Source of the DNA: Sulfurimonas sp. HSL3-1
Lineage (GTDB): Bacteria > Campylobacterota > Campylobacteria > Campylobacterales > Sulfurimonadaceae
DNA length: 64,000 nt
Assembly (NCBI RefSeq): GCF_039645995.1
Contig: NZ_CP147920.1
Coordinates: 2,232,001 to 2,296,000, forward strand
Direction of reading: 5' to 3'
Shown: piece after piece, positions 1,004-56,050 of the stretch
Numbering within the stretch: position 1 is the stretch's first letter
Layout of the letters: every line of letters starts with the position of its first letter
Notes under the pieces: generated by a model
Told to the model about the DNA's origin: nothing
The model's input: only the letters and a program-made list of their open reading frames with translations
Database searches by the model: none
Translations under genes and position numbers: made by a program

Positions 1004-1392
1004 TCGTCACCCCTTACACTTTTTTCATGAGACTGCGGAAGGTTCTGCCCATCTCCATCAATTTCTGTCCAGTTATTAAAGCGGTATGCATTATCATCGA
1101 TGTAGATATCAGCCCAAGGTTTTCCGAAGTGTATTTCGTCGTACTCTACACCATGTTTTTCAAGCCATTCTAAAGTGACCTGAGCAACGCGCTGCTGCAC
1201 AAGTCCTACATTACCCTGACATGTTTTCATATGCCGTGCCGTCAAAATAATGATGTAATGACCAAAACTTTTTAGTTCGTTAATTCTTTCAATTGCACCT
1301 GCTATAGGCTCTACATCTGCATATGTCTGGCCTGGCTGTTTGAGCTGACAGATTACACCATCCAAATCGATACATATTCGTTTTATTTTCAT
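1000..1392 (-). CDS. HAD-family phosphatase of capsule/O-antigen type
   Basis: The 130-residue protein carries the HAD nucleophile motif DLDGVI at residues 8-13, a TAR segment (motif II region) near residue 51 and a C-terminal GKPWADIYIDDNA stretch that supplies the motif III lysine and motif IV aspartates. It is small and capless, like the capsule-biosynthesis phosphatases found in polysaccharide clusters. It overlaps its neighbours by 4 bp on both sides, so it is probably translated as part of a coupled unit with the kinase-type fusion upstream and the nucleotidyltransferase downstream. Its likely job is to dephosphorylate, or recycle, the intermediate that those two proteins handle. Substrate unknown. 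Confidence 0.75.
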   Translation of the reverse strand: MKIKRICIDLDGVICQLKQPGQTYADVEPIAGAIERINELKSFGHYIIILTARHMKTCQGNVGLVQQRVAQVTLEWLEKHGVEYDEIHFGKPWADIYIDDNAYRFNNWTEIDGDGQNLPQSHEKSVRGDE

Positions 1393-5313: not shown

Positions 5314-5351
5314 AAAAATTCTATTTCCCACATTTTTGACAGCTAACTTCG

Positions 5352-25652: not shown

Positions 25653-26096
25653 CTAAAAAGTATTCTCATCCGAAATATCAATGTCTGGAAACGCATACAG
25701 CAACAGGTCTGCAGCCACCCCGTTTCCCTTGGCGATCTCGTTGCCCGCTTCATCCAGAATTGGCGTCGTCCCGATCCCGCAGCTGGGAGATTTCGATTTG
25801 AGGATGATCTTCGTCGCATCCGGGTGCGCCTTGATCAGCGTCTCGGTCTGTTCGACGAGCACATCGGTGACGTCGGTACCGTCCGCATCTTTTTTCACCC
25901 GCAGGCCGTGATCCTCCGTCGCGATGATACTGATCCGTCCGCGGGGTGTCCCCAGGACCGGAGCTTCCGGGCAGAAGGGGACGACCTCTTTGTCTGCGAG
26001 AAAGGCGAGAACACCGTCATCTTTTTTAGTGGCTCCATCATATCGGCATTTTTCGCCCAGTAGACATGCAGAAACTATTACCTTTTCCTTTCCCAT
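25653..26096 (-). CDS. DUF523-family protein
   Basis: The 147-residue protein starts MGKEKVIVSACLLGEKCRYD and has FCPEAPVLGTPRGRISI and KSKSPSCGIG, the conserved blocks of DUF523 with its Cys residues. The family's function is unknown. I chose the ATG at 26096, which has GGGATGG just upstream. An ATG at 26108 overlaps the stop of a truncated copy of the same gene directly upstream (26108-26224), so the first part of this gene has been duplicated. Confidence 0.85.
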   Translation of the reverse strand: MGKEKVIVSACLLGEKCRYDGATKKDDGVLAFLADKEVVPFCPEAPVLGTPRGRISIIATEDHGLRVKKDADGTDVTDVLVEQTETLIKAHPDATKIILKSKSPSCGIGTTPILDEAGNEIAKGNGVAADLLLYAFPDIDISDENTF

Positions 26097-26107
26097 ATTC
26101 CATCCCA

Positions 26108-26224
26108 TTAAACTATCTTACTCAGAACAATCGTGAGGTCGCTCACGATTTTTCCCGAGATATCGTCATACCGGCACGCTTCTCCCCGCAGACAGGCGGA
26201 GACGATCACCTTCTCTTTTTTCAT
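26108..26224 (-). pseudogene. Truncated duplicate of the DUF523 gene (first ~20 codons)
   Basis: A 38-codon frame reads MKKEKVIVSACLRGEACRYD and then diverges to a stop. The first 20 residues match the start of the intact DUF523 protein next door (MGKEKVIVSACLLGEKCRYD) at 16 positions. It lies just after the aldehyde dehydrogenase stop and ends at the next gene's upstream ATG. It is too short to fold like the family, so it is best read as a leftover of a tandem duplication or of a replaced 5' end, though a short leader peptide cannot be ruled out. Confidence 0.75.
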
Positions 26225-26228
26225 GATG

Positions 26229-27644
26229 CTACGCGATGACAACGGACTTGAGTTCCGTCATCTCCTCGATGGCGAACCGCGGCCCCTCGCGACCGACGCC
26301 GCTGAGCTTGACCCCGCCGTAGGGCTGGATGTCGAAACGCAGAGTCGGCATATCGTTGATGACGACCCCGCCTGCTTCAAGCTCGCTGATTGCGCGCTGC
26401 GTCAATGCCAGGTCGTTGGTAAAGATGGAGAACTGCAGCCCGTAGGGCGAATCGTTCATGCGGGGGGCAGCGTCGTCAAACCCCTCGACCTTCACCAGGG
26501 AGACGATCGGCGCGAAGACTTCCTCGCAGACGATCGCCATATCATCGGTGACGTCCGCCATCACCGTCGGGTAGAACATCGTGCCTTCGCACTTCACCTC
26601 CGTCATCGGACGCGCCCCTTCGTCAATGGCGCTTTGCACCCATGAAAGCGCCCTTTCAGCCGACTCTTCGTTGATGAGCGGTCCCATAAAGGTATCGTCT
26701 TCGTAGGGCGATCCGACAACGAGCTTCTGCGTCGCTTCGGCCATTTTCTGCGCAAACACGTCGTAGACGTCGGCATGGACATAGATGCGCTGCAGCGAGA
26801 TGCAGACCTGACCGGAGTTGACGAAGGCCCCGAGCGCACAGCGCTGCGCGGCGAGATCGAGGTCGGCGCTCTTGTCGACGAAGGTCGCCGCGTTGCCGCC
26901 CAGCTCCAGGCTCACCTTTTTGATCCCCGCACTCTTGGTGATGATGTTACCGACGGGAACGGAACCGGTGAAGCTGATCTTGCGCGGGATATCGCTGCCG
27001 ACCAGGGTGCTGCCGACTTCGGCATCGCCGTAGACGACGCTCAGCGCGTCTTTGACCGCATGGGGGCTCTCGATGAAAAGTTTGGCGAACTTGTAGGCCG
27101 TCAGCGGCGCCTCCGGCGTCGGTTTCAGCACAACCGTATTGCCCGCGACGAGGGCCGGGGCAAGCTTGTGCGCCACCAGGTTCAGCGGGAAGTTGAAGGG
27201 GGTGATTGCACCGATAACGCCGACGGGTTCACGGATATAGAAGGCCGTCGTTTTGCGGCCGCTAGGCATCGCATCGGTATTGATCGTTTCGCCGTGCATG
27301 GTGCGCATCGTCTCGGCGGCGAGGGTGACCGTCTCGATGCAGCGCTCCACCTCGACCCGTGAAAAAGCGATCGGTTTGCCGACCTCGTCCGTGATCGTTT
27401 TGGCCAGATCCTCTTTCTGCTCCCGCAGCTTTGCCGCCACGTCGTGCAGCCAGTCGCAACGCTGCGACAACGTCGACGCTTTGGCCGCTTTGGTGGCCGC
27501 TTTGGCGATCTTCAGCGCCCGCAGCGTCTCCTCTGCACCGCAGACTGGGGCCTTCGACACGACCCTGTTGTCATAGGGGCTGAGGCGTTCCGTCCAGCTC
27601 CCCGTCACCGCTTCGTTTGAGCCGAAAAATACCTTTGCTTCCAC
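26229..27644 (-). CDS. Aldehyde dehydrogenase (lactaldehyde/GapN-like)
   Basis: The 471-residue NAD(P)-dependent enzyme has ITPFNFPLNLVAHKLAPALV, the LELGGN motif with the general-base Glu near residue 254, and FVNSGQVCISLQR with the catalytic Cys near residue 288. The sequence style (SGQVCIS, EEVFAPIV, PYGGVKLSGVGREGP) is that of the lactaldehyde and non-phosphorylating glyceraldehyde-3-phosphate dehydrogenase group. Substrate cannot be fixed. Translation starts at a GTG at 27644, with GAGAGGA before it. A hairpin at 27670-27688 lies in the leader. Confidence 0.85.
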   Translation of the reverse strand: MEAKVFFGSNEAVTGSWTERLSPYDNRVVSKAPVCGAEETLRALKIAKAATKAAKASTLSQRCDWLHDVAAKLREQKEDLAKTITDEVGKPIAFSRVEVERCIETVTLAAETMRTMHGETINTDAMPSGRKTTAFYIREPVGVIGAITPFNFPLNLVAHKLAPALVAGNTVVLKPTPEAPLTAYKFAKLFIESPHAVKDALSVVYGDAEVGSTLVGSDIPRKISFTGSVPVGNIITKSAGIKKVSLELGGNAATFVDKSADLDLAAQRCALGAFVNSGQVCISLQRIYVHADVYDVFAQKMAEATQKLVVGSPYEDDTFMGPLINEESAERALSWVQSAIDEGARPMTEVKCEGTMFYPTVMADVTDDMAIVCEEVFAPIVSLVKVEGFDDAAPRMNDSPYGLQFSIFTNDLALTQRAISELEAGGVVINDMPTLRFDIQPYGGVKLSGVGREGPRFAIEEMTELKSVVIA

Positions 27645-27669
27645 TACTATTCCTCTCTTCTTTCACGTT

Positions 27670-27688
27670 ATCCGGGCAAAGCCCGGAT
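27670..27688. other. Perfect 8-bp hairpin upstream of the aldehyde dehydrogenase gene
   Basis: ATCCGGGC and GCCCGGAT pair around AAA, about 25 bp before the GTG start. There is no T-run, so it may be a leader structure and not a terminator. Confidence 0.5.
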
Positions 27689-27920
27689 ACCTACGTTAAC
27701 ACTTGGTTCGCCTCGGCGGCAGGCCCACGCGCAGCGACCCGCGCTCTGCCCCAAGGCAATGCCGGTGCTCACAAAAATCCTGCAAAAAAGTGTATCTATT
27801 ATACAAAGCGGGCCGTTAAGCCGCCGTTTGCCGCCCGCCATTAACACTGCTTTTAGAAAAAACCTTTTACAATCGAAACAAAAAATGCGGCATCCCCCGG
27901 GTGCCGCCGATAGGAAAATG

Positions 27921-28370
27921 ATGCTTAACCTTGAAATCATCCCCGGCCAGCTCGGCGTCCGTCCCCCGGTGACAAAACCCCATCCCGGCTTCTACCAGCA
28001 GGTCGGCGAAGCGCGCTTCCGCAAACTTGTCGACGACCACTACGAACTGATCCGTGACAGCGATATCGCCTTCCTCTTCCCCGTCAACGACGAAGACGAT
28101 TTCCAGCAGGCAAAAACCAATGCCGCCGACTTCTTCATCCAGATCTGCGGCGGTCCTGACTACTTCAACCAGCACCGCGGCGAACCCCGCATGGTCGGCC
28201 GCCACGCCCCCTTCCGCATCGACGAAGCGGCCCGCCGCCGCTGGCTGGAATTCTACGCCCAGCTGTTGCCCCAGCTCGTCGAAGAGGGCATAGACGAAGC
28301 GTACGTCCAGTCATTCTGGGACTACATCAACGTCTTCTCCACCTGGATGATTAACACACCGTCCGCATAA
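27921..28370 (+). CDS. Group II truncated hemoglobin
   Basis: The 149-residue globin has the group II pattern: ICGGPDYFNQHRGEPRMVGR, then HAPF with the proximal heme His, then the RRRWLEFY segment with the Trp at the G8 position. It is likely involved in oxygen or nitric-oxide chemistry. The first ~35 residues (GQLGVRPPVTKPHPGFYQQV) form a longer leader than in most of the family. The ATG at 27921 has AGGA five bases before it. An in-frame upstream ATG at 27759 would add residues that look non-coding. Confidence 0.86.
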   Translation: MLNLEIIPGQLGVRPPVTKPHPGFYQQVGEARFRKLVDDHYELIRDSDIAFLFPVNDEDDFQQAKTNAADFFIQICGGPDYFNQHRGEPRMVGRHAPFRIDEAARRRWLEFYAQLLPQLVEEGIDEAYVQSFWDYINVFSTWMINTPSA

Positions 28371-28440
28371 CTGAATTTTGCGCACACCCTATCCCTGAGG
28401 GAACTTCCTCCGGGGCGAGTGATAAAAAAGCTTATCAATA

Positions 28441-28587
28441 TCTATCTTCTTTCGTCTGGTCAGAAACGGTATTTAGCGTATCAGCCGGATCGCCTGGGAA
28501 TGGAATATCCCGAAAGCAACAGCCTTTCGCACTTTCTTCTTTCGGGTTCGGTTTCTTCTTTGTGCGAGCAAAGAAGAAAGGGAACAG
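28441..28587. repeat. Repeat B, copy 1 (~147 bp)
   Basis: Matches 38457-38602 over its whole length, with blocks such as GTCAGAAACGGTA, TATTTAGCGT versus TAATTAGCGT, AGCAAAGAAGAA and GGGAACA. It contains an 11-bp hairpin TTTCTTCTTTG/CAAAGAAGAAA. It occupies most of the gap between the globin and adenine deaminase genes and carries no gene. Confidence 0.78.
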
Positions 28588-28678
28588 CACACCAACTAGA
28601 AAACAGCAACTTTCCAAGTAATCCCCCCTTTATCCCATCTATGCAAAAATGTATTCGATTGAAAAGAGGTGCAAAACC

Positions 28679-30307
28679 ATGGTCATCGAATCCAACTATG
28701 TTGATATCCGCCGCCGCGAGATCTACCCCGCCAAAGTCATCATTGAAAACGGCGTTATCGATTCCGTCACCAAAATCGGCACCCCCTGCTCCACCTACCT
28801 CCTCCCCGGTTTCATCGACGCCCATATCCACATCGAAAGCTCCATGCTCCCGCCGAGCGAATTCGCCCGCCTCGCCACGCTCCACGGCACCGTGGCGACC
28901 GTCTCCGACCCCCACGAGATCGCCAACGTCCTCGGGATCAAAGGGGTCGAGTTCATGCTGGAGAATGCCCAGAAGGTTCCCTTCCACTTCGCCTTCGGGG
29001 CCTCCCCCTGCGTCCCGGCGACCCCCTTTGAAACGAGCGGCGCGACCCTCGGCGTCGATGAAGTGAAAACACTGCTGACCAAGCCGCAGATCGGCTATCT
29101 CAGCGAGGTGATGAACTTCCCCGGGGTCATTGCCGGCGACGCGGAAATGCTCGCAAAGATTGCAGCTGCAAAGGCGCTGGGTAAACCCGTCGACGGCCAC
29201 GCCCCCGGCCTGCGCGGCGACGACCTGAAACGCTACATCGCTGCGGGCATCACGACCGACCATGAGGCCTTCAGCTACGAAGAGGGGCTGGAGAAGGTGC
29301 AGGCGGGGATGAAGATCCTGATCCGCGAAGGCTCCGCCGCGAAAAACTTCGAAGCCCTTGCCCCATTGATAGGCAAATACCCAGAAATGCTGATGTTCTG
29401 CAGCGACGACCGCCACCCCGACGACCTCCGCCGCGAACACATCGACGCCCTCGTACGGCGTGCCGTCGCAAAAGGGTATGACCTTTTCGACGTGCTGCGC
29501 ATCGCCTGCCTCAACCCCATTGAGCACTATGGCCTCGGTGTCGGGACGCTGCAGCCGGGGGAGAGCGCCGACCTCATCGAAGTCGACACCCTGGAGGATT
29601 TTACCGTCCTACGGACCGTTATCGGGGGCCGTACGGTGGCCGAAAAAGGCAGCAGCCTGATCCCCTCCGTACCGCTGCCGGAGCTCAACAACTTCCATGC
29701 CTCACTTAAGCGGCCGGAGGATTTTGCCCTCCCGCCCTGCGACACCGCGGAGGTGATCGAGGCCGTCGACGGCGAACTGGTGACCCACGAGATGGTCGCC
29801 TCGCTGAAAAACGTCCCCGCCCACCGCATCGGTGACCCCGAGCACGACATCCTCAAAATCGCCGTCGTCAACCGTTACGAAGATGCCCCGCCCGCCGTCG
29901 CCTATGTCAGCGGTTTCGGGCTGAAAGAGGGGGCCATCGCCTCCAGTGTCGCCCACGATTCGCACAACATCATCGCTGTCGGCTGCAGCGACGAAGCCAT
30001 TGCCAGGGCGGTCAACCTTGTGGTCGACGCGCAAGGAGGTGTCTGTGCCCTCAACGAAGCAGCTGAGCGTCTGCTTCCGCTGCGCATTGGCGGGATCATG
30101 AGCGGGGAGGACGGCTTCAAGGTCGCCGAGCAGTACGAAGCGCTGGATCGCTTCGTTAAAACGGCGCTGGGTTCGAAATTGCACGCACCCTTTATGACGC
30201 TTTCGTTTATGGCGCTGCTCGTCATCCCCGAGCTCAAGCTCAGCGACAAAGGGCTCTTCGACGGGCGGAGCTTCCACTTCATCAAAGGGTGCAAATTAGA
30301 ACCATGA
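28679..30307 (+). CDS. ade: Adenine deaminase
   Basis: The 542-residue amidohydrolase has FIDAHIHIESSMLPPSEFA near residue 42 (metal-binding His pair), SDPHEIANVLG, GHAPGLRG and DDRHPDDL, the AdeC signatures. It deaminates adenine to hypoxanthine. I chose the ATG at 28679, which has AGAGGTG upstream, over one at 28649. It overlaps the purine permease gene by 4 bp (ATGA), tying uptake and first step together. Hypoxanthine would then feed the xanthine-dehydrogenase operon that converges from the other side. Confidence 0.92.
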   Translation: MVIESNYVDIRRREIYPAKVIIENGVIDSVTKIGTPCSTYLLPGFIDAHIHIESSMLPPSEFARLATLHGTVATVSDPHEIANVLGIKGVEFMLENAQKVPFHFAFGASPCVPATPFETSGATLGVDEVKTLLTKPQIGYLSEVMNFPGVIAGDAEMLAKIAAAKALGKPVDGHAPGLRGDDLKRYIAAGITTDHEAFSYEEGLEKVQAGMKILIREGSAAKNFEALAPLIGKYPEMLMFCSDDRHPDDLRREHIDALVRRAVAKGYDLFDVLRIACLNPIEHYGLGVGTLQPGESADLIEVDTLEDFTVLRTVIGGRTVAEKGSSLIPSVPLPELNNFHASLKRPEDFALPPCDTAEVIEAVDGELVTHEMVASLKNVPAHRIGDPEHDILKIAVVNRYEDAPPAVAYVSGFGLKEGAIASSVAHDSHNIIAVGCSDEAIARAVNLVVDAQGGVCALNEAAERLLPLRIGGIMSGEDGFKVAEQYEALDRFVKTALGSKLHAPFMTLSFMALLVIPELKLSDKGLFDGRSFHFIKGCKLEP

Positions 30308-31587
30308 ACCTCTTTCAACTCCGCGACCACGGCACGGACATCCGCACCGAGATGACCGCCGGCTTTACGACCTTCCTCGCCATGCTCTACATCATCCCCG
30401 TCAACGCCGCGATCCTCAGCGCGGCGGGTCTTCCCTTCGATGCCGTCATTACCGCAACGGCGGTTATGACCATCATCGCCTCTATCCTCAACGGCCTCTG
30501 GGCCAACACCCCGATTGCCATGAGCGTCGGCATGGGGCTCAACGCCTACTTCAGCTTCGGGCTCGTCAAAGGGATGGGGCTGGCGTGGCAAACGGCCCTG
30601 GGGATCGTCTTCCTTTCCGGCATCCTCTACATCCTTATCAGCATCACTCCGCTGCGGCGCTGGATGATCGCAACGATCCCCATCGATGTCAAACGCGCCG
30701 TCAGCGCGGGGATAGGCGCCTTCATCGCTTTTATCGGGATGGAACAGCTTCACCTCATCACGGACAGCCCGGCAACCCTGGTCACCCTGGGCAACCTCAA
30801 AGACCCCCACCTGCTCATCGGCCTCTTCGGCCTCGCCCTGGCGATCTTGCTTGTCATCAAGAAGGTCCGCGGGGCCTTTATCCTCTCCATCATACTGACC
30901 GCCCTGCTCGCCTGGGCGACGGGGGTGGAGCCGATGCCCGGGGCCTTTTTCTCCCTGCCCGCTTCCATGGCGCCGATCGCCTTCGAGCTCGACATCGCCT
31001 CTGCCCTGAGCCTCTCGATGGCGCCGCTCATTCTCATCTTTCTCATCACCGACCTCTTCGACACCCTGGGTACTCTGACCGGAGTCGGCATGCGTGCGAA
31101 CCTCTTTCACGGCAGGGATTCCGTCCCCCTGCAGCGCACCATCGAGGCCGACGCCGCGGCGACGATGCTCAGCGGCCTCGCCGGGGTGACCAGCACGACC
31201 GCGTTCATCGAGAGTGCTGCAGGCGTCGAAGCGGGCGGACGAACGGGACTGACCGCCGTCGTTACCGGGCTGCTCTTCATTCTGCCGCTCTTCTGGCTCC
31301 CCTTTTTCCAGGCGATCCCCTCCAATGCCATCTATCCGGTGCTTATCGTTATCGGCGTCATGATGTTCGGGGAACTGCAGCATATCGACTATTCGGACGC
31401 GGCGGTCAAGTACAGTAGCTTCCTCATCGTCCTGGGGATGCCGCTCACCTACTCCATTACCGACGGGCTGCTGCTGGGATCACTCGCCTACGTCTTTATC
31501 CGCCTCATCCAGGGGCGTTTCAGGCAGATCGATATCGCGATGGGCGTCCTCGCCGCCGTCGCCCTACTCGTCTTTTTCGTTCTTTGA
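30304..31587 (+). CDS. NCS2-family purine permease (AzgA/PbuG type)
   Basis: The 427-residue membrane protein has TAGFTTFLAMLYIIPVNA near the N-terminus, AMSVGMGLNAYFSFG and FDTLGTLTGVG, the conserved motifs of adenine/hypoxanthine/guanine permeases. About 12 membrane helices are visible. Start ATG at 30304 is coupled to the ade stop. The pairing with adenine deaminase makes adenine or hypoxanthine the likely substrate. Confidence 0.88.
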   Translation: MNLFQLRDHGTDIRTEMTAGFTTFLAMLYIIPVNAAILSAAGLPFDAVITATAVMTIIASILNGLWANTPIAMSVGMGLNAYFSFGLVKGMGLAWQTALGIVFLSGILYILISITPLRRWMIATIPIDVKRAVSAGIGAFIAFIGMEQLHLITDSPATLVTLGNLKDPHLLIGLFGLALAILLVIKKVRGAFILSIILTALLAWATGVEPMPGAFFSLPASMAPIAFELDIASALSLSMAPLILIFLITDLFDTLGTLTGVGMRANLFHGRDSVPLQRTIEADAAATMLSGLAGVTSTTAFIESAAGVEAGGRTGLTAVVTGLLFILPLFWLPFFQAIPSNAIYPVLIVIGVMMFGELQHIDYSDAAVKYSSFLIVLGMPLTYSITDGLLLGSLAYVFIRLIQGRFRQIDIAMGVLAAVALLVFFVL

Positions 31588-31589
31588 GC

Positions 31590-32135
31590 TCAGCCGAAAA
31601 TGCGTCTGAGTTCCTCGTCCGTATTGGCGTTGAGCGCCACCTTCGGATCGTCGACGGCAACGGCCTCTGCGATGCCGGTAGCCTCGATCCATGCATCAAG
31701 GCGTCCCACGTCCGAGGCGAGCAGATCGCTTTTCATAACGGCGCTGATGCGCTGCGGCGGGGCGCGGTGTCCCTCGAAAAAAGCCGTCGCCACGGGGCTT
31801 TTGCTTCTTGAGAGTGCCTCGAAGACACCCTTGTCCGGTACAGGGCGGTCCACTTGGCAGAAGTAGAGTTCCGGTGCATCGAGCGTCTCGAATGCCTTCT
31901 TCACGGAGGAGAACATCCCCTCCCCGTACGCTTCGTTGCGGATGACGCGCACCCCCTCTGGAAGGGCGGCGCTGATCTGATCAAAGGCATGCCCCAGGAC
32001 GACGGCGACGTCGTACCCGTAGCTGCGCAGCTGCCGGATCTGCCGGTTGATCAGGTACTCACCGTCCACCCTGTAGAGCGGTTTCATCACGGAACTGCGG
32101 GAGGATTTCCCCGCGGCGAGCAGGACGACCGTCAT
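31590..32135 (-). CDS. MocA-like molybdenum-cofactor cytidylyltransferase
   Basis: The 181-residue NTP-transferase begins MTVVLLAAGKSSRSSVMKPL and contains QVDRPVPDKGVFEAL, the layout of MocA/MobA-like proteins. The family adds CMP to molybdopterin to make the MCD cofactor used by xanthine dehydrogenase-type enzymes. It is the last gene of the operon and overlaps the FAD subunit gene by 4 bp, so it probably matures the cofactor for that enzyme. No XdhC/CoxI-type sulfuration chaperone is seen in the window. Confidence 0.78.
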   Translation of the reverse strand: MTVVLLAAGKSSRSSVMKPLYRVDGEYLINRQIRQLRSYGYDVAVVLGHAFDQISAALPEGVRVIRNEAYGEGMFSSVKKAFETLDAPELYFCQVDRPVPDKGVFEALSRSKSPVATAFFEGHRAPPQRISAVMKSDLLASDVGRLDAWIEATGIAEAVAVDDPKVALNANTDEELRRIFG

Positions 32136-32938
32136 CTCTCCTCCGGCTGCGAGAGGGCTTCTTTGATCATGTTGAACGCCACCCGGAGGCGGTACGCCTT
32201 CGTCGAACGGTACCCGCCGGAGGGGTCCGCATCGTTCTCAAGGGCCGCTTTGATCGCAGCGTCGTCGTACACGCCCCCGTCCAGCAGAGCCTCGAGGGTT
32301 CGGAAGCGGACGGGAGAGGGACCCAGTGACGCCCCGCTGATGCGGAAACCCCCGCTGCCGTGCGTTAGGGCGATGCTCACCTTCGCGATGTTGAGCCGCT
32401 CCCTCATCCCCGCCTTTCGGTAGTACCAGCTCCCTGTCTGCAGCGGGACGGTGACGGCGGTAATGAGCTCATGGTCGAGTTTCGTGCATTTGTAGCCGCA
32501 GAAGAGCGTTTCCAGCGGCACGCTCCGCTCCCCGTCCTGCGACGCCAGCGTCACCGAAGCCTCCAGCGCCACCAGCGCGGCCGTCAGGTCCGCGGCGGGC
32601 GAGGCGTTGGCGATGTTGCCGCCGACGGTGGCGAGGTTGCGGATCTGGTGTGAGCCGAAGGTGTCAGCGCACGCGGCCAGCAGCGGCAGAGACTCCCGGA
32701 CCGCATCGCTGTAAAGCAGTTCATTGAGCGTCACAAGCGTACCGATCCGCATGCGGTCGCCCTCCGCACTGACGCCTTTCAGCTCCTCCAGGGCGTGGAT
32801 GTCGATGAGGGTGGCCGTTTCAGGTCGATGCCGTAACTGCAGCGCCGCGTCGGTGCTGCCGCAGAGCAGCAGTGCCTCCGGATACTCTTCCAGCAGTGCC
32901 GTCACCTCGCCGAGATTCGTCGCGCGCAGATAGTTCAT
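32132..32938 (-). CDS. Xanthine dehydrogenase-type FAD-binding subunit
   Basis: The 268-residue protein has LLCGSTDAALQLRHRPETATLIDI, then ATVGGNIANASPAADLTAAL, the FAD-binding PCMH-type motifs, and a C-terminal CO-dehydrogenase flavoprotein domain. It passes electrons from the Fe-S subunit to FAD and on to the acceptor. It overlaps the Fe-S subunit gene by 4 bp. Confidence 0.9.
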   Translation of the reverse strand: MNYLRATNLGEVTALLEEYPEALLLCGSTDAALQLRHRPETATLIDIHALEELKGVSAEGDRMRIGTLVTLNELLYSDAVRESLPLLAACADTFGSHQIRNLATVGGNIANASPAADLTAALVALEASVTLASQDGERSVPLETLFCGYKCTKLDHELITAVTVPLQTGSWYYRKAGMRERLNIAKVSIALTHGSGGFRISGASLGPSPVRFRTLEALLDGGVYDDAAIKAALENDADPSGGYRSTKAYRLRVAFNMIKEALSQPEER

Positions 32939-33378
32939 GACTTCACCTTCGTGATCGCCTCGACGATCTTCTTGTATCCGGTACAGCGGCAGAGGTTGCC
33001 GTCCAGGGCCGCCCTGATCGCCTCTTCACTGCGTTCACCGCCATGGCTCAGGTAGTCGTAGGCGCGCAGGACGAAGCCCGGCGTGCAGAAGCCGCACTGC
33101 ACCGCTCCGTGTTCGGCGAAGCTTTCGCGGATTGCAGCCGTCTCCTCCTGCAGTCCCTCCAGCGTCACAATCTCCGCGTCGTGTATCTGCGGGGCGAGCA
33201 GCAGGCAGGCGTTGACGAGTCTGCCGTTGACGAAGAGGCTGCAGGCGCCGCACTCCCCTTCGCCGCAGCCCGCCTTGACCGACGTCATTCCCGCGTCGCG
33301 CACCAGGTCAAGCACCCGGGTCTCCGGGGCGCAGTCGAAACGGTGGATTTTGCCGTTGATCGTACACGTTATCTGCAT
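32935..33378 (-). CDS. Xanthine dehydrogenase-type [2Fe-2S] subunit
   Basis: The 147-residue protein has GCGEGECGACSLFVNG for the plant-type cluster (with its fourth Cys further on, ACLLL), then CGFCTPG and CRCTGY for the second [2Fe-2S] cluster, the complete eight-cysteine set of this family. It links the molybdenum site to FAD. It overlaps the molybdenum subunit gene by 10 bp. Confidence 0.94.
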   Translation of the reverse strand: MQITCTINGKIHRFDCAPETRVLDLVRDAGMTSVKAGCGEGECGACSLFVNGRLVNACLLLAPQIHDAEIVTLEGLQEETAAIRESFAEHGAVQCGFCTPGFVLRAYDYLSHGGERSEEAIRAALDGNLCRCTGYKKIVEAITKVKS

Positions 33379-35504
33379 GCTTCCTCCACGGCTTCCGGGG
33401 TAATCGGCAAGGCGTCGAACGCGCTCCCAAGGGCATGGACCAGTGCGTTGGCGACGGCGGCGGACGGACCGTCCATCGGCAGCTCCCCCAGCCCCAGCGA
33501 AGGGCCGTCTGTGCCGAGGAAACGCACTGCAATTTCCGGTAGATCGGGGGCCATCGGCAGTGTATAATCGCTCAAATGCGGGGAGTAAACCCGCCCCGCT
33601 TCATACACCAGGCGCTCGCACAGGGCGTACCCGATCCCCTGGGCTACGCCCCCTTCGACCTGCCCCTCCGCCATCACCGGGTTAACGACCTGCCCGACGT
33701 CGTTGTAGGCGTCGAAACGGACGACCCGGACGCGGTAGTCGACGGGGTCGACTTCCACTTCGGCGATGTAGCATCCCAGCCCGTACGCCTCGTAGCCGTT
33801 GCCGTAAAAGAGGTCTTCATCCCAGAGAATGTCGGCGGGCTGTTCATAGGAGGCCCCGAACTGCAGCGGACCGCCGCTTTTGCAATAGCGCGCTACCGCC
33901 GCCCGGTACGCATCGGGAGTACCGTAATCGCCGAGCGCCGTTTTCAGCTTACCCGCCGCCTGCGCGAGCAGACGCCCGACGATCATCACGGTCCGCGAGG
34001 CGACCGTCGGCCCGCTGTCGGCAACTTCGGCGGTATTCGGGGTACGGCAGGAGACCATCCCGACGGGGAGGTCCAGTGCATCGGCAACGATCTGCGGCAG
34101 CGCCGTCAGCGTCCCCTGCCCCATCTCCACGCTTCCGACACGGATCTCGACGCTGCCGTCCGCCTCCAGGGCGATCGAGACGCTGGAAGCCAGCATGCTC
34201 TCCCCGACGCCCGTGTAGCCCGCCCCGTGCATGAAGAGCGCCATTCCAATCCCACGGTTCGGCGCCGGGGCGTCATAAATGGCATCAAAACCGCTCTCAC
34301 GCCTTGCGGTCTCGAACAGATCACGCAGCCGGGCGTATTCAGCGATCGGCACCCCCGAAACGCCAACCGAACCCGCACCGGGAAGATTGCCCTCGCGGAC
34401 CGCCGCCGGCGAGAGGCCGAGATGACGGGCGATATCGTCCATATGGCGCTCGATCCCGAAAAGGACCTGCGGGGCACCGAAACCGCGGAATGCCCCGTTG
34501 GGCGGCGTATTCGTCGCCACGGCGCGGGCATCGACCCTGATATAGCCGCAGTCGTAGAAGCCCGCCGCATGCAGAACGCAACGCGCAAGGACGACGGGCG
34601 AGAGCGTTACATACGCCCCGCCGTCGATCGTGACATCCACTTCAAGCGCATGCAGTTTTCCCGTGGCGTCGAAACGGCTCCTGTAGCGCAGTTTTGAGGG
34701 GTGCCGCTTGGTCGTGTAGGCGATATCTTCTTCACGGTCATAGACGATCTTGACATCCTGCCCCGCCTTCTTGCACAGCAGGTAGGCGTAGCCCGCAATG
34801 AGGGAGGGGTAGTCCTCCTTGCCGCCGAAGCCGCCACCGGTGGGGGCCTGCTCCACCTCGATCTTCTCGCCGGCAAGTCCCTCCAGCGCCGCCTCGACGA
34901 AGAAGGGGCACTGCATCGAACCGATGATCTTGACCCGCCCGCCGTCGTAGCGCGCCAGCATGCTCTGCGGTTCCAGGTAGGCCTGCTCCTGGTGCGGGGT
35001 CGTGTAGGTCTTCTCCAGACTGAATAGACCCGTCTTCTGCGGAGGGCTCCCTTTGACCGTATGGATGGCTTTGAAGACGTTATCCTCGCCGTAGAGCCGC
35101 TGCTTGAGCGCCAGGGACTCCTCCATGCTCAGTACCGGCTCCTGCGCGTCGTAGTCGATCGTGATATGGGCCATTGCCTCGCGGAGCCGCCGTTTGGAAC
35201 GGTGCGCCAGCAGGAGGATCGGCTCCCCGATATGCCGGACCCTCGCCTCCGCAAGGAAGGGCTGGTCGTCGGTCAGAACGACGTTGGCGTTGCGACCCTC
35301 GATGTCTCTGTGGTCGACAATGATGATATCGGAGAAATCAAAGGAGGCGTCAAAGGTGATCGCACGGATCTTTCCATACGCGATCTCGGAGCGGACAACC
35401 GCCCCGTACAACCCCTCAAAAGGCAGATCATCCGTATAGCGCAACGTCCCGTCCGCTTTCGACGCGGCATCGACACGAACGACACTCTCGCCTACGACTC
35501 CCAT
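33369..35504 (-). CDS. Xanthine dehydrogenase-type molybdopterin-binding subunit
   Basis: The 711-residue protein has PTGGGFGGKED, PNGAFRGFGAPQ, GSVEMGQGT and GLGELPMDGPSAA, where the Glu of GLGELP is the expected active-site base. The family is that of xanthine dehydrogenase and relatives. Together with ade and the purine permease next door, oxidation of hypoxanthine to xanthine and urate is the best reading. Nicotinate or other N-heterocycle hydroxylation is possible. An unusually strong GAGGAGGAG ribosome site precedes the ATG at 35504. A perfect GGCTCC/GGAGCC hairpin lies at 35525-35540. Confidence 0.88.
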   Translation of the reverse strand: MGVVGESVVRVDAASKADGTLRYTDDLPFEGLYGAVVRSEIAYGKIRAITFDASFDFSDIIIVDHRDIEGRNANVVLTDDQPFLAEARVRHIGEPILLLAHRSKRRLREAMAHITIDYDAQEPVLSMEESLALKQRLYGEDNVFKAIHTVKGSPPQKTGLFSLEKTYTTPHQEQAYLEPQSMLARYDGGRVKIIGSMQCPFFVEAALEGLAGEKIEVEQAPTGGGFGGKEDYPSLIAGYAYLLCKKAGQDVKIVYDREEDIAYTTKRHPSKLRYRSRFDATGKLHALEVDVTIDGGAYVTLSPVVLARCVLHAAGFYDCGYIRVDARAVATNTPPNGAFRGFGAPQVLFGIERHMDDIARHLGLSPAAVREGNLPGAGSVGVSGVPIAEYARLRDLFETARRESGFDAIYDAPAPNRGIGMALFMHGAGYTGVGESMLASSVSIALEADGSVEIRVGSVEMGQGTLTALPQIVADALDLPVGMVSCRTPNTAEVADSGPTVASRTVMIVGRLLAQAAGKLKTALGDYGTPDAYRAAVARYCKSGGPLQFGASYEQPADILWDEDLFYGNGYEAYGLGCYIAEVEVDPVDYRVRVVRFDAYNDVGQVVNPVMAEGQVEGGVAQGIGYALCERLVYEAGRVYSPHLSDYTLPMAPDLPEIAVRFLGTDGPSLGLGELPMDGPSAAVANALVHALGSAFDALPITPEAVEEACR

Positions 35505-35651
35505 CGCCTCCTCCTCGCACGAACGGCTCCCTCCGGAGCCACCTTAAACCATTATGCCCAAACATTCGCGAAAGCCCCATTAACGCAGCCTTAAACACCA
35601 CTTGGATAAAATATCCGACTTTCGTAGAATTACCGATAATTTGGAGAACCA

Positions 35652-36569
35652 ATGAACGAAGCCAAGTACATTTGGATGAACGGCGAATTCCTTCCCTGGC
35701 AGGAATCAAAAGTCCACGTACTGTCACATACGCTGCACTACGGCAACGGCGTCATCGAGGGGACCAAGGCGTACAAAACCGACAAGGGGTACGCCATCTT
35801 CCGCCTCAACGACCACACCGAGCGTCTGATCCAGTCGGGCAAGATGGTCCTGCTGAACATCCCCTACAGCGTCGAGGAGCTCAACAACGCGCAGATCGAA
35901 CTGATCCGCAAGAATGACTTTACGGGCGACAACGTCTACCTGCGCCCCTTTGCCTTCCTGGGCTACGGCGTTATGGGCCTCTACCACAAGGATGCCCCTG
36001 TCGAGACGGCCGTCGCCGCATGGGAGTGGGGCGCCTACCTCGGCGAAGAGGGAATGCGCAAGGGTATCCGCCTCAAGATCTCCTCGTTCACCCGCCCGGC
36101 CAACACCTCCAACATGGGTAAGGCCAAGGCGGTCGCAAACTACCTGAACTCGCAGATGGCCAAGTTCGAAGCGGTCGAGTGCGGCTACGACGAAGCCCTG
36201 CTCCTCGACGACCAGGGGTACGTCGCCGAAGCGAGCGGCGCGGGCTTCTTCATGGTTCGCGACGGCAAACTCATCTCGCCGCCGAACGACAACTCCCTCG
36301 AATCGATCACCCAAAAGACGATCATCGAGCTGGCCCAGGATATGGGCTATGAAGTTGTCCGCCGCCGCGTCACTCGGGAAGAGGCCTACATCGCCGATGA
36401 AGCCTTCCTGACCGGCACGGCCGCGGAGATCACCCCGGTCCGCGAGATCGATGCCCGCGTGCTTGGCAACGGCGCCCGCGGTCCGATCACGGAAAAACTG
36501 CAGAGCGCCTACTTCGACGTCGTCTTCGGACGCAACCCGAACTACACGCACTACCTGACCTACGTCTAA
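35652..36569 (+). CDS. ilvE: Branched-chain amino acid aminotransferase
   Basis: The 305-residue fold-type IV aminotransferase begins NEAKYIWMNGEFLPWQ and has HTLHYGNGVIEGTKAY, ANYLNSQMAKFEA and GYDEALLLDDQG, standard for IlvE; the PLP lysine should be the one in SNMGKAKAVANY. It makes valine, leucine and isoleucine from their keto acids. A GGAG ribosome site precedes the ATG at 35652. It is followed by an SPFH gene 13 bp downstream. Confidence 0.95.
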   Translation: MNEAKYIWMNGEFLPWQESKVHVLSHTLHYGNGVIEGTKAYKTDKGYAIFRLNDHTERLIQSGKMVLLNIPYSVEELNNAQIELIRKNDFTGDNVYLRPFAFLGYGVMGLYHKDAPVETAVAAWEWGAYLGEEGMRKGIRLKISSFTRPANTSNMGKAKAVANYLNSQMAKFEAVECGYDEALLLDDQGYVAEASGAGFFMVRDGKLISPPNDNSLESITQKTIIELAQDMGYEVVRRRVTREEAYIADEAFLTGTAAEITPVREIDARVLGNGARGPITEKLQSAYFDVVFGRNPNYTHYLTYV

Positions 36570-36582
36570 AAGGAAAGCAAGC

Positions 36583-37650
36583 ATGGCAACAGACATGAAC
36601 GACTACTTCAACAAGAAAAAAAGCAGCTCCGGCGGCAGCGGCGGCGGGTTCACCCCGCCCAAGCCCCCCAAGATGGAGTTCAACATGGGCAAAGGCAAAT
36701 CGGCACTGCTCCTTCTCGGCGTCGTCATCGTTGTCTTCCTGCTCCTCGCCAAACCCTTCGTTATCATTACCGAAGGCGAACGCGGTATCCTCGCGACCAA
36801 CGGGAAGTATGAACCCAACGCCCTCCTGCCGGGCCTGCACTTCATCATCCCCGTGATCCAGAAGGTCTACCTCGTCGATACGAAGGTGAGGATCATCAAC
36901 TACGCCAGCCGCATCGAGCGTGCCGGGGCCGAAGGCGAAGGCCTTGAAGTCCGTCCGGCGATCACCGTCTTGGATAAACGCGGTCTGCCCGTCTCCATCG
37001 AACTGACGGTCCAGTACCGCCTCAATGCGCAGTACGCGGCACAGACGATCTCCAACTGGGGCTTCAGCTGGGAAGAGAAGATCATCAACCCCGTCGTGCG
37101 CGACATTGTCCGCAACGTCGTCGGCCAGTACGAAGCGGAATCCCTGCCGACGAACCGCAATACCATCGCGAACCAGATCGAACAGGGCATCCGCCAAAGC
37201 ATCGAGGGGCAGGAGAACTCTCCTGCCATCTTCCAGTCGGTGCAGCTGCGTGAAATCGTCCTGCCGCAGAAGGTCAAGGACCAGATCGAAAGCGTCCAGA
37301 TCGCCAAGCAGCAGGTCCAGAAAGCCGAGCAGGATGTCCAGCGCGCCAAGCAGGAAGCCCTCAAACGGGCCGCCGAGGCCCAGGGTAAAGCCAATGCCGT
37401 CCGCATCGAGGCGGAGGGTAAAGCCAACGCGATCAAGATCGAAGCCGACGCGACCGCCCAGGCCAACAAGGCCATCAGCGCCTCACTCACGGACAAGCTT
37501 CTCCAGATGGAGCAGATCAAGGTCCAGGGACAGTTCAACGACGCCCTGCGCGAGAACAAAGATGCGAAGATATTCCTGACCCCGGGAGGCTCCACCCCGA
37601 ACATCTGGGTCGACATGAAGAACCCGCAGCGCCAGAGCGCCATCAAGTAA
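36583..37650 (+). CDS. SPFH/prohibitin-family membrane protein
   Basis: The 355-residue protein has a Gly/Ser-rich N-terminus, a single membrane helix (ALLLLGVVIVVFLLL at residues ~41-55), a band-7/SPFH domain (from FVIITEGERGILA onward) and a long coiled coil rich in AEGKANAIKIEADA repeats near residues 230-300. It is a prohibitin/HflK-like scaffold of the inner membrane, perhaps modulating FtsH protease as in other bacteria, an inference from the family. A hairpin terminator follows. Confidence 0.85.
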   Translation: MATDMNDYFNKKKSSSGGSGGGFTPPKPPKMEFNMGKGKSALLLLGVVIVVFLLLAKPFVIITEGERGILATNGKYEPNALLPGLHFIIPVIQKVYLVDTKVRIINYASRIERAGAEGEGLEVRPAITVLDKRGLPVSIELTVQYRLNAQYAAQTISNWGFSWEEKIINPVVRDIVRNVVGQYEAESLPTNRNTIANQIEQGIRQSIEGQENSPAIFQSVQLREIVLPQKVKDQIESVQIAKQQVQKAEQDVQRAKQEALKRAAEAQGKANAVRIEAEGKANAIKIEADATAQANKAISASLTDKLLQMEQIKVQGQFNDALRENKDAKIFLTPGGSTPNIWVDMKNPQRQSAIK

Positions 37651-43270: not shown

Positions 43271-43600
43271 CTACAAGGTGATATTTTCAAGCAATTCGCA
43301 CTCCCCGCCGCTGACAATCACGGCGTCAAGCACGTAGTCAAGCTCCAGGCGGTGCTTTTTCATATAGCTTTCCGCCGTCATCAGGATCTTGCGTATTTTC
43401 GCCGGTGTGACGTTGTTCGCCGCCTGTTCAAAGGTCGGGGAACTTTTCACCTCGATGATGTGCAGCACCTCATCCCGCATGGCCAGGATATCGATCTCGC
43501 CGAAACGGCTGCTGACGTTCCTGTCGATGATCCTGAACCCGCGTACGCGCAAGAAATCGACGGCCTGCTGTTCGGCGACGTCCCCTGCAGCCCGGCTCAT
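43271..43600 (-). CDS. yraN: YraN/UPF0102 endonuclease-like protein
   Basis: The 109-residue protein has GDVAEQQAVDFLRVRGF, RFGEIDILAMRD and IIEVKSS, the PD-(D/E)XK-type core of the YraN (UPF0102) family. The role is not established. It may be a DNA-related nuclease. The start overlaps the formate dehydrogenase stop by 4 bp. Confidence 0.86.
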   Translation of the reverse strand: MSRAAGDVAEQQAVDFLRVRGFRIIDRNVSSRFGEIDILAMRDEVLHIIEVKSSPTFEQAANNVTPAKIRKILMTAESYMKKHRLELDYVLDAVIVSGGECELLENITL

Positions 43601-45669
43601 ACCGCTTCGGCCCGGACCTTGATCGATTTGAACGCCGCCGTCAGGATCAGTTCGTCCCGCTTGTCCCCGAAAAGCGCATTGATGCGCGAGCCCGCATGGT
43701 GGAACGTTGCAAAGAGCGTGCCAGGCTGTACCTTGTCGGTGATCTTGACCCGCAGCGGGGCCGAAGAGCCGTATTCGGTATGCAAGACCGCCTTTTCCGT
43801 CGGGAAGGCCGCCGCATCCGTTTCGCTCACCAGCAGAATATCTTCGTCATAACGCTTGTTCAGGCGCTCGGAAGCCTTCGTCTGGGCGGCGTTGTTGTAA
43901 TGGGCCAACGTTCGCCCCGTCGTCAGATAGTAGCCGTCTTCAACCCGTTTTTTCGCGATGAGCTCGGGGACCATGCCGCGGGGCGCGTACTGGTGGTAGT
44001 GGAACTGCCCCAGACCGTCGGGCGTCCGGAAGTCGAGCAGGTGCAGTACCGGGGTATCTTCGGTGTAGACCGGCCACTGGAGCCCCCGCTTTCGGTGGCG
44101 CTCTAGGCGCATGTAGGAGGCGCCGCTGAAGCGGCGGTGGGCGACTTCGCGTACCTCGTCCCACACCTCGGAACTCTCTTTGTAATCGTAGCTGCCGCCC
44201 ATCTTGTTATCGAGCATCTGGATCACTTCCCAGTCATCAGGCAGGTCCGATTGCACCAGCGGCTGGGAGAGGTGCAGACGGCGCATCGCGTTGACGTAGA
44301 CGCCTGTCTTCTCGTAGGCGGACTTGACCCCGACGACGATATCGGCGCGCTTGGCGACGTCGTTCATCATGATCTCCTGGACCATCAGCAGCTCCAGCTG
44401 CTCGAACGCCCTGTCGATCTTGTTGAGGTTGGGATGGATATGAGTGATATCCTCGCCCATGTTGAGCACCGCCTTGATCTTGCCCTCAAGCATCGCGTCG
44501 ACGAGCTGCGGCGTCATGAGCCCCTCTTCCTTGGGCTTTTGGTAATCGGGGTCGTAGTAGGGCAGACACCCCATGTCGCAGGCGCCCTGGACGTTGTTCT
44601 GGCCGCGCAGCGGCATCAGCCCCGCCCCGGTCTGGCCGATGTTCCCCGTCAGCAGTGCGAGGTGGGTGATCGCCATGACCGCGTAGGAGCCGTCGAGGTG
44701 TTCGGTAATCCCCAGCCCCCAGAAGATCATCGACTTCTTCACGGCGTATTCGCGGGCGATGTTCGGGATCAGCTTGGCGAGGTGCTCGAAACCGCTGACC
44801 TGCTTGAAATAGTCCGGGTCCGTATAGGGGTCACCCAGAATCTTCTCTTTGTACTCCTCGAACCACTTCGTGCGTGTTCCGATGAATGCTTTGTTGTAGA
44901 GCTCCTCTTCGATGATGACCCGGGCCATCATGTTGAGAATGAGCAGGTTCGCCTCGTGGGGGATAATCGCCTTGTGCTTGGCGAACTTCATCAGCTTGAT
45001 GTCACGCACGTCGATGACGGCGAGGTTGTGGTGCTTCTGCGCCGCCTCGACGATGCGGTTGGCGACGATGGGGTGCGCCTCGGTCGTATTCGAACCGATG
45101 ACGACCATAAACTCCGTTTCGTAGATGTCGTTATAGGGGTTCGTCGCCGCCCCCTCGCCGATCGTCGTACGCATCCCCTTAAGACTGGGGCTGTGGCAGA
45201 CGCGGGCACAGTTGTCGACATGGGGGGAGTTCATCGTATGGCGGGTGAACTTCTGGAAAAGGTAGGCGCTCTCGCAGCTGGTACGCGCCCCGCCGATCGC
45301 GCAGAAGCTCTTTTCGCCGTGTTTCGACTGGATCTCCCGCAGCTTCATCGCCGCCGCACTCACCGCGGTATCGACATCGCACTCGAACCAGGTCTCGTCG
45401 AAGTCGCGCAGTTTTCCGCCGAACGCCTCGGCAATCGCCGGGTTCTTCGCCAAGAAGCTTTTGCGGATCCGCGGAGTGCGGAGACGGTTGGCGTCACTGA
45501 CAAAATCAAAACCGTATTTGCCCTTGATGCAGAGCTTGCCCTGCGAAACATAGCCGTCCGCCGAGGCGCCGATCTTGACGATCTGGTTGTCCTCGACATG
45601 CCCTTCGATATCACAGCCGACGCCGCAGTAGGTACAGACGCTGTCGATCACTTTGACCGAATTGCCCAT
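43597..45669 (-). CDS. Formate dehydrogenase-type molybdopterin oxidoreductase (cysteine form)
   Basis: The 690-residue protein has the [4Fe-4S] motif Cys12, Cys15, Cys19, Cys47 and CARVCHSPSLKGM, the position where E. coli FdhF has selenocysteine followed by His. Cys replaces Sec here. Nitrate reductases have a different residue after this Cys, which favours formate dehydrogenase. It is single-subunit, unlike membrane FDH complexes, and no electron-transfer partner is adjacent. I chose the ATG at 45669 with AGGA 8 bases upstream. A GTG at 45705 is possible. A perfect palindrome lies just upstream. Confidence 0.85.
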   Translation of the reverse strand: MGNSVKVIDSVCTYCGVGCDIEGHVEDNQIVKIGASADGYVSQGKLCIKGKYGFDFVSDANRLRTPRIRKSFLAKNPAIAEAFGGKLRDFDETWFECDVDTAVSAAAMKLREIQSKHGEKSFCAIGGARTSCESAYLFQKFTRHTMNSPHVDNCARVCHSPSLKGMRTTIGEGAATNPYNDIYETEFMVVIGSNTTEAHPIVANRIVEAAQKHHNLAVIDVRDIKLMKFAKHKAIIPHEANLLILNMMARVIIEEELYNKAFIGTRTKWFEEYKEKILGDPYTDPDYFKQVSGFEHLAKLIPNIAREYAVKKSMIFWGLGITEHLDGSYAVMAITHLALLTGNIGQTGAGLMPLRGQNNVQGACDMGCLPYYDPDYQKPKEEGLMTPQLVDAMLEGKIKAVLNMGEDITHIHPNLNKIDRAFEQLELLMVQEIMMNDVAKRADIVVGVKSAYEKTGVYVNAMRRLHLSQPLVQSDLPDDWEVIQMLDNKMGGSYDYKESSEVWDEVREVAHRRFSGASYMRLERHRKRGLQWPVYTEDTPVLHLLDFRTPDGLGQFHYHQYAPRGMVPELIAKKRVEDGYYLTTGRTLAHYNNAAQTKASERLNKRYDEDILLVSETDAAAFPTEKAVLHTEYGSSAPLRVKITDKVQPGTLFATFHHAGSRINALFGDKRDELILTAAFKSIKVRAEAV

Positions 45670-45687
45670 GTTCAATCCTGGTAAGCA

Positions 45688-45702
45688 CACGTCGCTGACG
45701 TG
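45688..45702 (-). promoter_or_regulatory. Inverted repeat upstream of the formate dehydrogenase gene
   Basis: CACGTC, then GCT, then GACGTG forms a perfect 6-bp arm palindrome 19 bp before the ATG. It could be an operator or an mRNA leader hairpin. Confidence 0.35.
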
Positions 45703-45764
45703 CACCTGAAATTTTTAAAAAAGTCTAGCGGTTGGGGGCTTAATCTGCTGTACCCTGACCTCAT

Positions 45765-54823: not shown

Positions 54824-56050
54824 ATGCCCGTTACCGTCGAAGAAGCCCTCGCGCGCATTCACGCCCACCGTCCGAAGCTGCGCCGCGAATTCATTCCCAT
54901 CGAGGAGGCCATCGGTCGGGTGCTGGCCCAGGACGTCACGGCCCGCTACAACCTTCCACCCTTCGACAACTCCGCCATGGACGGGTACGCCGTTATCTGC
55001 TCCGATGCGGGCAAACGCGTGCTCGCCGAGCATACGATCTTTGCGGGAGACCGGGAACAGATCCGTATCGCGGAGGGCCAGGCCGCACGGATTATGACCG
55101 GGGCGCGTATTCCCGAAGGAACCGAGTGCATCGTCCCCATCGAGGAGGTCACCGTCGAAGGCGAACACGTCACCCTCCCCTCGCCTTTGAGAGCGGGCCA
55201 GCACATCCGGCTCTGCGGCGAGGATATCCAGACCGACGACACACTGCTAACAACGGGCGATACCCTCTCGGCCTACCACATCACCCTGCTTGCATCCCAG
55301 GGGATCACCCACGTCTGCGTCTACCACCGTCCGAGGGTCGCCATTTTCGCCTCGGGGAGTGAATTGAAGATGCATCACGAGCAGGTCGCCCCCTACCAGC
55401 TCTACAACACCAACTCCCCGACCTTTGCGGCCCGGGCGGCGGAGCTGGAGTGCGACGTCCATTTCGTCGGGACGGCGGCCGATACGCTCGACGCCCTGCT
55501 CGAACATATCGACAGTGCTTTGCAGAGTGACCTCATCATTACCAGCGGCGGCGTCAGTGTCGGGGACGCGGACTACACCAAGGAGGCGTTCACCCACTTC
55601 AGCTTCATACCGCTTTTTGAAAAGGTCGACCTCAAGCCGGGGAAACCGACGACGGTCGGCACCATCGGCGACACGCTGGTGCTCAACCTGCCGGGTAACC
55701 CGATGGCGGCCGCACTCTGTTTTGAACTGTTCGGACAGGCCCTGATCGCCTCGCTCAGCGGGACAAACGCCCCCTTCCACAACAGCATCACGGCCAGGAT
55801 GAAACACGCCTACAACGTCCGCCCGGGCCGCCGGACGCTGCTGCCGGGCTATTATGACGGAAACCACTTCACCGTCTGCGAGAAGTTCGCACCGGGGATG
55901 ATCACGCCCCTGGCCCTCTCGAACGGCTTTATCATGCTTGACGAAGCCTGCAGTGCCGTCGCCCAAGAGGCCGAGGTACGCTTTATCCCGACACGCTTCG
56001 TCTGGCGGAGCGGCAGCGCCGTCTCCCTGGTGAGTACGTCGGAGGCGTAA
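54824..56050 (+). CDS. moeA: Molybdopterin molybdenumtransferase
   Basis: The 408-residue protein has LPPFDNSAMDGYAV near the N-terminus, GARIPEGTECIVPIEEV and TSGGVSVGDADYT in the central domain, and NLPGNPMAAALCF, typical of MoeA. It inserts Mo into the pterin. This supports the molybdoenzymes present in the window (formate dehydrogenase and the xanthine dehydrogenase-type enzyme). It diverges from the small membrane protein. Confidence 0.95.
   Translation: MPVTVEEALARIHAHRPKLRREFIPIEEAIGRVLAQDVTARYNLPPFDNSAMDGYAVICSDAGKRVLAEHTIFAGDREQIRIAEGQAARIMTGARIPEGTECIVPIEEVTVEGEHVTLPSPLRAGQHIRLCGEDIQTDDTLLTTGDTLSAYHITLLASQGITHVCVYHRPRVAIFASGSELKMHHEQVAPYQLYNTNSPTFAARAAELECDVHFVGTAADTLDALLEHIDSALQSDLIITSGGVSVGDADYTKEAFTHFSFIPLFEKVDLKPGKPTTVGTIGDTLVLNLPGNPMAAALCFELFGQALIASLSGTNAPFHNSITARMKHAYNVRPGRRTLLPGYYDGNHFTVCEKFAPGMITPLALSNGFIMLDEACSAVAQEAEVRFIPTRFVWRSGSAVSLVSTSEA

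Follow-up and report, generated by a model that had tools for sequence, protein, structure and literature searches.

A putative adenine uptake and oxidation module in Sulfurimonas sp. HSL3-1 with a xanthine dehydrogenase-like hydroxylase and no detected XdhC

Introduction

The classical xanthine dehydrogenases (XDHs), exemplified by Rhodobacter capsulatus XdhAB and the bovine enzyme, combine molybdenum (Mo), [2Fe-2S] and FAD domains, and the accessible part of PMC2671166 ties Glu232 and Arg310 of the R. capsulatus enzyme to purine binding and transition-state stabilization. The Bacillus subtilis Puc XDH consists of separate subunits and is accompanied by a MocA homologue, PucB, according to the available text of PMC2997495. 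That text and the accessible part of PMC10609526 describe XdhC as a protein that holds the cofactor, gets it sulfurated and passes it on, and the enzyme as inactive without it. Here we describe a locus of Sulfurimonas sp. HSL3-1 (Campylobacterota; contig NZ_CP147920.1, positions 2,232,001 to 2,296,000, a stretch of 64,000 nucleotides referred to as the window) in which genes for an adenine deaminase and a nucleobase permease converge on an operon for an XDH-like Mo hydroxylase. We read the locus as a module for the uptake and oxidation of adenine, whose hydroxylase would be matured without an XdhC-family chaperone; we put the probability of this reading at about 0.58.

The window enzyme has in common with the classical XDHs the Mo, 2Fe-2S and FAD domains and the Glu232/Arg310-type residues, and these enzymes are its best-placed neighbours in the tree. 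It differs from them in being divided into three separate subunits, in the presence of a MocA-like gene, in a Tyr at the position of Phe459, in scoring far under the NCBIfam XDH cut-offs and in having no XdhC detected in its genome. Among the proteins of B. subtilis PucABCDE, PucD provides the best NCBIfam match of the window Mo subunit, at less than half of the cut-off, while no counterpart of PucA, the XdhC homologue, was found in the window genome. The nicotinate dehydrogenase of Eubacterium barkeri (3HRD) is near the N-terminal half of the window Mo subunit (192 bits), but has Leu (chain 3HRD_A) where the window protein and XDH have Glu, and its Mo subunit is split into two chains. Finally, a relative encoded on an Acidithiobacillus caldus megaplasmid (WP_014003649.1, 43% identical) belongs to the same clade and has the same substrate residues, whereas its operon differs in containing XdhC, an AtzD-family hydrolase, AtzE and HpxZ.

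Results and Discussion

The Mo subunit carries XDH-type substrate residues

PF02738 has a single match in the complete window genome of 2.5 Mb, the Mo subunit, and the domains of the xanthine oxidase (XO) family in the enzyme score over their cut-offs (PF01315, PF02738, PF20256, PF00111, PF01799 and PF00941). The best NCBIfam models of the Mo subunit are all XDHs: PucD (345.3 bits, cut-off 783.65), XdhA (341.4 bits, cut-off 780) and an XdhB-type model (288.5 bits, cut-off 849.5). Residues Gln197, Glu232, Arg310 and Phe344 of R. capsulatus XDH align with Gln198, Glu230, Arg308 and Phe342 of the window protein. The position of Phe459 is occupied by Tyr430, which is Tyr in all four genomes of the window's genus and Phe in the other five, more distant, proteins of the clade described below; the catalytic Glu is Glu674, assigned by the GxGE motif only. 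By alignment, the XDH-type purine substrate residues (Glu, Arg, the Phe pair with Tyr at one of its positions, and the catalytic Glu) are predicted to be present. The Glu/Arg pair is absent from Escherichia coli XdhA, XdhD and PaoC, from a Sinorhizobium medicae protein and from the XdhA-like Campylobacterota proteins L034, L035 and L038, and a Mop-like protein of genome G206 has Phe at the Glu position. Glu230 argues against the window protein being a nicotinate dehydrogenase. An AlphaFold model of the subunit had a mean predicted local distance difference test score (pLDDT) of 64 with poor loops, and was not used for a fold search.

In a tree of 26 Mo subunits, from which PucD is absent and in which nicotinate dehydrogenase is represented by 408 residues only, the window protein falls in a nine-row clade (support 100/99) with three relatives of its genus, two Sulfurimonas metagenome-assembled genomes (MAGs), a Planctomycetota MAG, A. 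caldus and Peribacillus simplex. The clade is best placed beside the XDHs of cow, R. capsulatus and genome G254 (88/92), and the placement is the same when five active-site columns are left out (79/90). An identity of the E. coli XdhA type was rejected, as the constrained tree failed the approximately unbiased test (p-AU 3.7e-6) and the residues also differ. Genome G254, of the window's family, encodes its classical two-subunit XDH together with XdhC at L036:3791-8291, at a contig start and near open reading frames (ORFs) that look transposase-like by eye.

XdhC is not detected in the Campylobacterota carriers

The preliminary description of the locus had proposed a search for XdhC elsewhere. 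Neither of the XdhC domains, PF13478 and PF02625, was found in the complete window genome by profile search, and this result became our main finding. PF13478 was likewise found in 0/4 genomes of the genus and 0/2 Sulfurimonas MAGs, that is, in none of the six Campylobacterota carriers of the enzyme, while it is present in the Planctomycetota MAG; the P. simplex relative is accompanied by both a MocA-like gene and XdhC. For comparison we used a phylum sample of 397 Campylobacterota genomes, counting Mo protein matches at E <= 1e-30. Such matches occur in 24 of them, four from the window's genus and 20 others at no more than 32% identity. PF13478 exceeds its cut-off in 40/397 genomes (46 at E <= 0.001), including 20/20 of the non-genus genomes with an XO-family Mo subunit. 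The six carriers stand apart from their relatives by an undetected XdhC, because all 20 other genomes with a Mo subunit carry PF13478.

An ordinary maturation, with an XdhC that has diverged beyond the reach of PF13478 and PF02625, has to be weighed against this. Very diverged members do escape profile searches, and six weak PF13478 matches below the cut-off occur in other Campylobacterota. We nevertheless consider it unlikely: both domain searches were negative in a complete genome, the domain was detected over its cut-off in the 20 other Campylobacterota genomes and in the Planctomycetota MAG, and the operon offers no additional gene, as nothing beyond the Mo, 2Fe-2S, FAD and MocA-like genes belongs to it in the window or in the Sulfurimonas MAG copies. 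The open-licence literature searched contained no report of an XDH without XdhC, or of such a module in Campylobacterota, which is a weak negative.

A diverged MocA-like protein may provide the cofactor

The preliminary description gave the operon its own MocA. A MocA-like fourth gene is indeed present, but its product scores below the MocA cut-off (TIGR03310, 50.7 against 186.45 bits) and below that of NF045665 (84.5 bits), and we do not count it as a member of either family. It retains the LAAG motif, whereas the DIDT or DVDT of three other MocA-like proteins is NANT in the four aligned members of the window group. A predicted structure with a mean pLDDT of 86.5 matches the folds of E. coli MobA and Rv0371c over its full length. 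MobA carries an NxNT motif, so that the sequence does not indicate which nucleotide the MocA-like protein uses. A MoeA gene elsewhere in the window speaks for cofactor synthesis.

The XDH-like enzyme is probably matured by an XdhC-independent route. The cofactor would most likely come from the operon's MocA-like protein, and a cysteine desulfurase could supply the sulfur, either directly or via a chaperone so far unrecognized. The most specific form of this scheme, an active, sulfurated XDH-type enzyme in which, with no XdhC-family protein, the MocA-like protein acts as carrier of the nucleotide-modified cofactor and a cysteine desulfurase adds the sulfur, is offered as a tentative and rather doubtful proposal.

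Adenine uptake and deamination, and their link to the hydroxylase

The adenine deaminase (Ade) scores well above the cut-off of its equivalog model (TIGR01178, 607.6 against 472.5 bits) and shares 39% identity with E. coli AdeD across 508 columns, so that it is a member of this family. The ATG at 28679 seems a better start than position 28649, because the TIGR01178 match begins at residue 11. The best E. coli matches of the permease are AdeQ (280 bits) and AdeP (277 bits), followed by GhxP (214 bits) and GhxQ (197 bits), and no match to E. coli XanQ or UacT was obtained at 1e-3; closer to AdeP/AdeQ than to the others, it is most likely an AzgA-type adenine permease. The permease would import adenine, and Ade would convert it to hypoxanthine and ammonia, a step well supported by these assignments. 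The hydroxylase would then oxidize hypoxanthine to xanthine and probably on to urate, with either NAD or the respiratory chain receiving the electrons via the 2Fe-2S clusters and FAD. The route from adenine through hypoxanthine and xanthine to urate that had been proposed from the first thus stands well for the deamination, while its later steps, for which the XDH-type residues speak, are likely but unproven. No purine riboswitch or other Rfam element was found at positions 26000-37000 at the gathering score. An adenine deaminase match at G221:C1:1520376-1521989 contains one in-frame TAA and is possibly a pseudogene.

Genomes with an Ade match number 15/397, and in five of these (four of the window's genus and G254) it occurs together with a Mo protein match. 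At 89% identity or more, the Mo protein is confined to four genomes of the sample, all of the window's genus, the three relatives being 89-92% identical. The combination of Ade and Mo hydroxylase is rare in Campylobacterota. The three relatives have all six genes in the same order (4/4 with the window); linkage in relatives was one of the tests named in the preliminary description. However, the genes surrounding the locus (aldehyde dehydrogenase, globin and ilvE) are equally kept, and linkage within the genus proves little because unrelated neighbours are conserved too. In the two Sulfurimonas MAGs (59% identity) the Mo, 2Fe-2S, FAD and MocA-like genes follow in unchanged order, and no ade or permease gene lies beside them on their contigs of 4953 and 6761 bases.

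Several observations weigh against the reading of the locus as an adenine oxidation module matured without XdhC. The Mo subunit comes near none of the XDH equivalog cut-offs (at best 345 bits, cut-off 784). A tree constrained to unite the clade with nicotinate dehydrogenase was not rejected (p-AU 0.142); between XDHs and nicotinate hydroxylases, the comparison envisaged in the preliminary description, the best tree leans towards XDH without deciding. The Glu/Arg pair also occurs in the XdhD-like protein L033 of genome G222, outside both the clade and the classical XDHs. Beside the Planctomycetota and Sulfurimonas copies, the stretches examined showed no recognized purine genes, and the context of the A. 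caldus operon suggests another N-heterocycle there. Furthermore, the absence of XdhC is a profile-search result, and for two of the six genomes, both MAGs, no completeness is stated.

Alternatively, the hydroxylase might act on another N-heterocycle, for example a uracil-, pteridine- or triazine-like compound, its place beside ade and the permease gene being a chance inherited in one genus. The A. caldus relative, in an operon with a ring-opening amidohydrolase of the AtzD family, AtzE and HpxZ, is a point in favour, as are the lack of co-transcription of convergent genes, the equal conservation of ilvE, aldehyde dehydrogenase and globin, and the short MAG contigs without ade or permease. Yet the XDH residue set is complete, with both Glu230 and Arg308, no AtzD-family gene was found in any of the six Campylobacterota genomes, and a deaminase and permease of adenine type stand immediately beside the hydroxylase operon, so that another substrate appears improbable. 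The A. caldus operon itself (L040:9986-20373) encodes an XDH-like hydroxylase, an AtzD-family hydrolase (TIGR02714, 372.3 bits, cut-off 360), AtzE, a DUF4089 protein, HpxZ and XdhC, and may serve the oxidation of a pyrimidine- or triazine-like ring.

The fate of urate

The preliminary description also held that the module may allow purines to be used as nitrogen sources. Ammonia from the deamination would fit this, but no family for urate breakdown was found among those tested, which did not include urease, allantoinase or FAD-type urate hydroxylases. Uricase (PF01014) was found in 0/7 genomes, OHCU decarboxylase (PF09349) in 0/8, and the AtzD family (TIGR02714) in 1/9 genomes or records, namely on the A. 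caldus plasmid and in none of the six Campylobacterota carriers. YgfK (TIGR03315) exceeded its cut-off in 1/8 genomes, only in G222, which had been added as positive control; weaker matches, to the oxidoreductase part, occur in 8/8, the best of the window genome reaching 241.6 against 835.3 bits. Two further routes were discarded: that through barbiturate or cyanurate in the carrier genomes, as the AtzD family was not found, and a selenium-dependent Mo hydroxylase cluster, as PF02625 and PF13478 were not found and YgfK remained below cut-off in the window genome. A general use of purines as a source of nitrogen is weakly supported, and a nitrogen role rests on the amino group of adenine because the urate-degrading families tested were not found. 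Genome G222 (L033, L034), which is low in GC and comes from another family of Campylobacterota, has an E. coli-like yge/ygf cluster with XdhA- and XdhD-type hydroxylases, YgfK (by profile), other hydrolases, MocA, XdhC and purine-type permeases (most of them named by eye), a purine/urate set fuller than that of the window.

These negative searches would also fit salvage rather than catabolism, adenine being converted to xanthine for GMP synthesis with urate as no significant product. A small Gpt-like phosphoribosyltransferase is encoded in the window genome, but it matches the xanthine phosphoribosyltransferase model below its cut-off (65.8 against 138 bits), and XDH enzymes normally carry xanthine oxidation on to urate. 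On balance salvage seems somewhat unlikely as the main role. If oxidation does proceed, urate would probably be excreted, or xanthine drawn into guanine nucleotides by the Gpt-like enzyme.

Organization and integrity of the locus

The six genes are intact ORFs spanning 28649-35504 of the window (Table 1), which bears out the described convergence of an adenine deaminase and purine permease pair on a Mo hydroxylase operon. On the plus strand, the permease gene overlaps ade by 19 bases. On the minus strand, the order is Mo, 2Fe-2S, FAD, MocA-like, and the four genes are taken as an operon because each overlaps the next by a few bases. Pair and operon converge, since their ends stand 2 bases apart.

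Table 1. Positions in the window of the genes of the locus and of other features mentioned in the text.
Feature	Positions	Strand	Domains, models and remarks
ade, adenine deaminase (Ade)	28649..30307	+	TIGR01178; likely start 28679
AzgA/NCS2-type nucleobase permease, most likely adenine type	30289..31587	+	PF00860; overlaps ade
Diverged MocA-like nucleotidyltransferase, operon gene 4	31590..32135	-	PF12804
FAD-binding subunit	32132..32938	-	PF00941, PF03450; NF043083 156.7 bits, below cut-off 310
2 x [2Fe-2S] subunit	32935..33378	-	PF00111, PF01799; both four-cysteine motifs
Mo-binding catalytic subunit, XDH-like	33369..35504	-	PF01315, PF02738, PF20256
MoeA gene	54824-56047		
Possible surface-sugar island	272-7279		GC3 0.24-0.35 (one gene 0.63)
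Formate dehydrogenase alpha-like protein	43597-45705		TIGR01591 542.6 bits, below cut-off 666.25

All genes are open in the four genomes of the genus, and the ratios of nonsynonymous to synonymous substitution (dN/dS) among these genomes, 0.10-0.20 for the operon, about 0.16 for ade and 0.03-0.07 for the permease, indicate purifying selection. A decaying remnant is unlikely because the genes are under such selection. Base composition gave no sign of a recent foreign origin: G+C content at third codon positions (GC3) is 0.78-0.84 in the six genes and similar in their neighbours (ilvE 0.85, aldehyde dehydrogenase 0.81), the mean of the window being pulled down by its left end, where a stretch has low GC3. 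Genes for polysaccharide synthesis and a sulfotransferase-family protein lie in that region, which looks like a surface-sugar island. For the formate dehydrogenase alpha-like protein, no partner subunit was recognized among the neighbours scanned.

Implications

The module described at first as complete and unusual for the phylum is rare (Mo protein at 89% or more in 4/397 genomes, Ade in 15/397), but it seems to end at urate. The earlier picture is corrected accordingly: purines could apparently be carried by the module in the direction of urate, and no means of urate use was found. Its hydroxylase, an enzyme maintained by purifying selection with no visible XdhC, provides a natural group in which to ask whether XDH-type enzymes need this chaperone at all and what takes its place.

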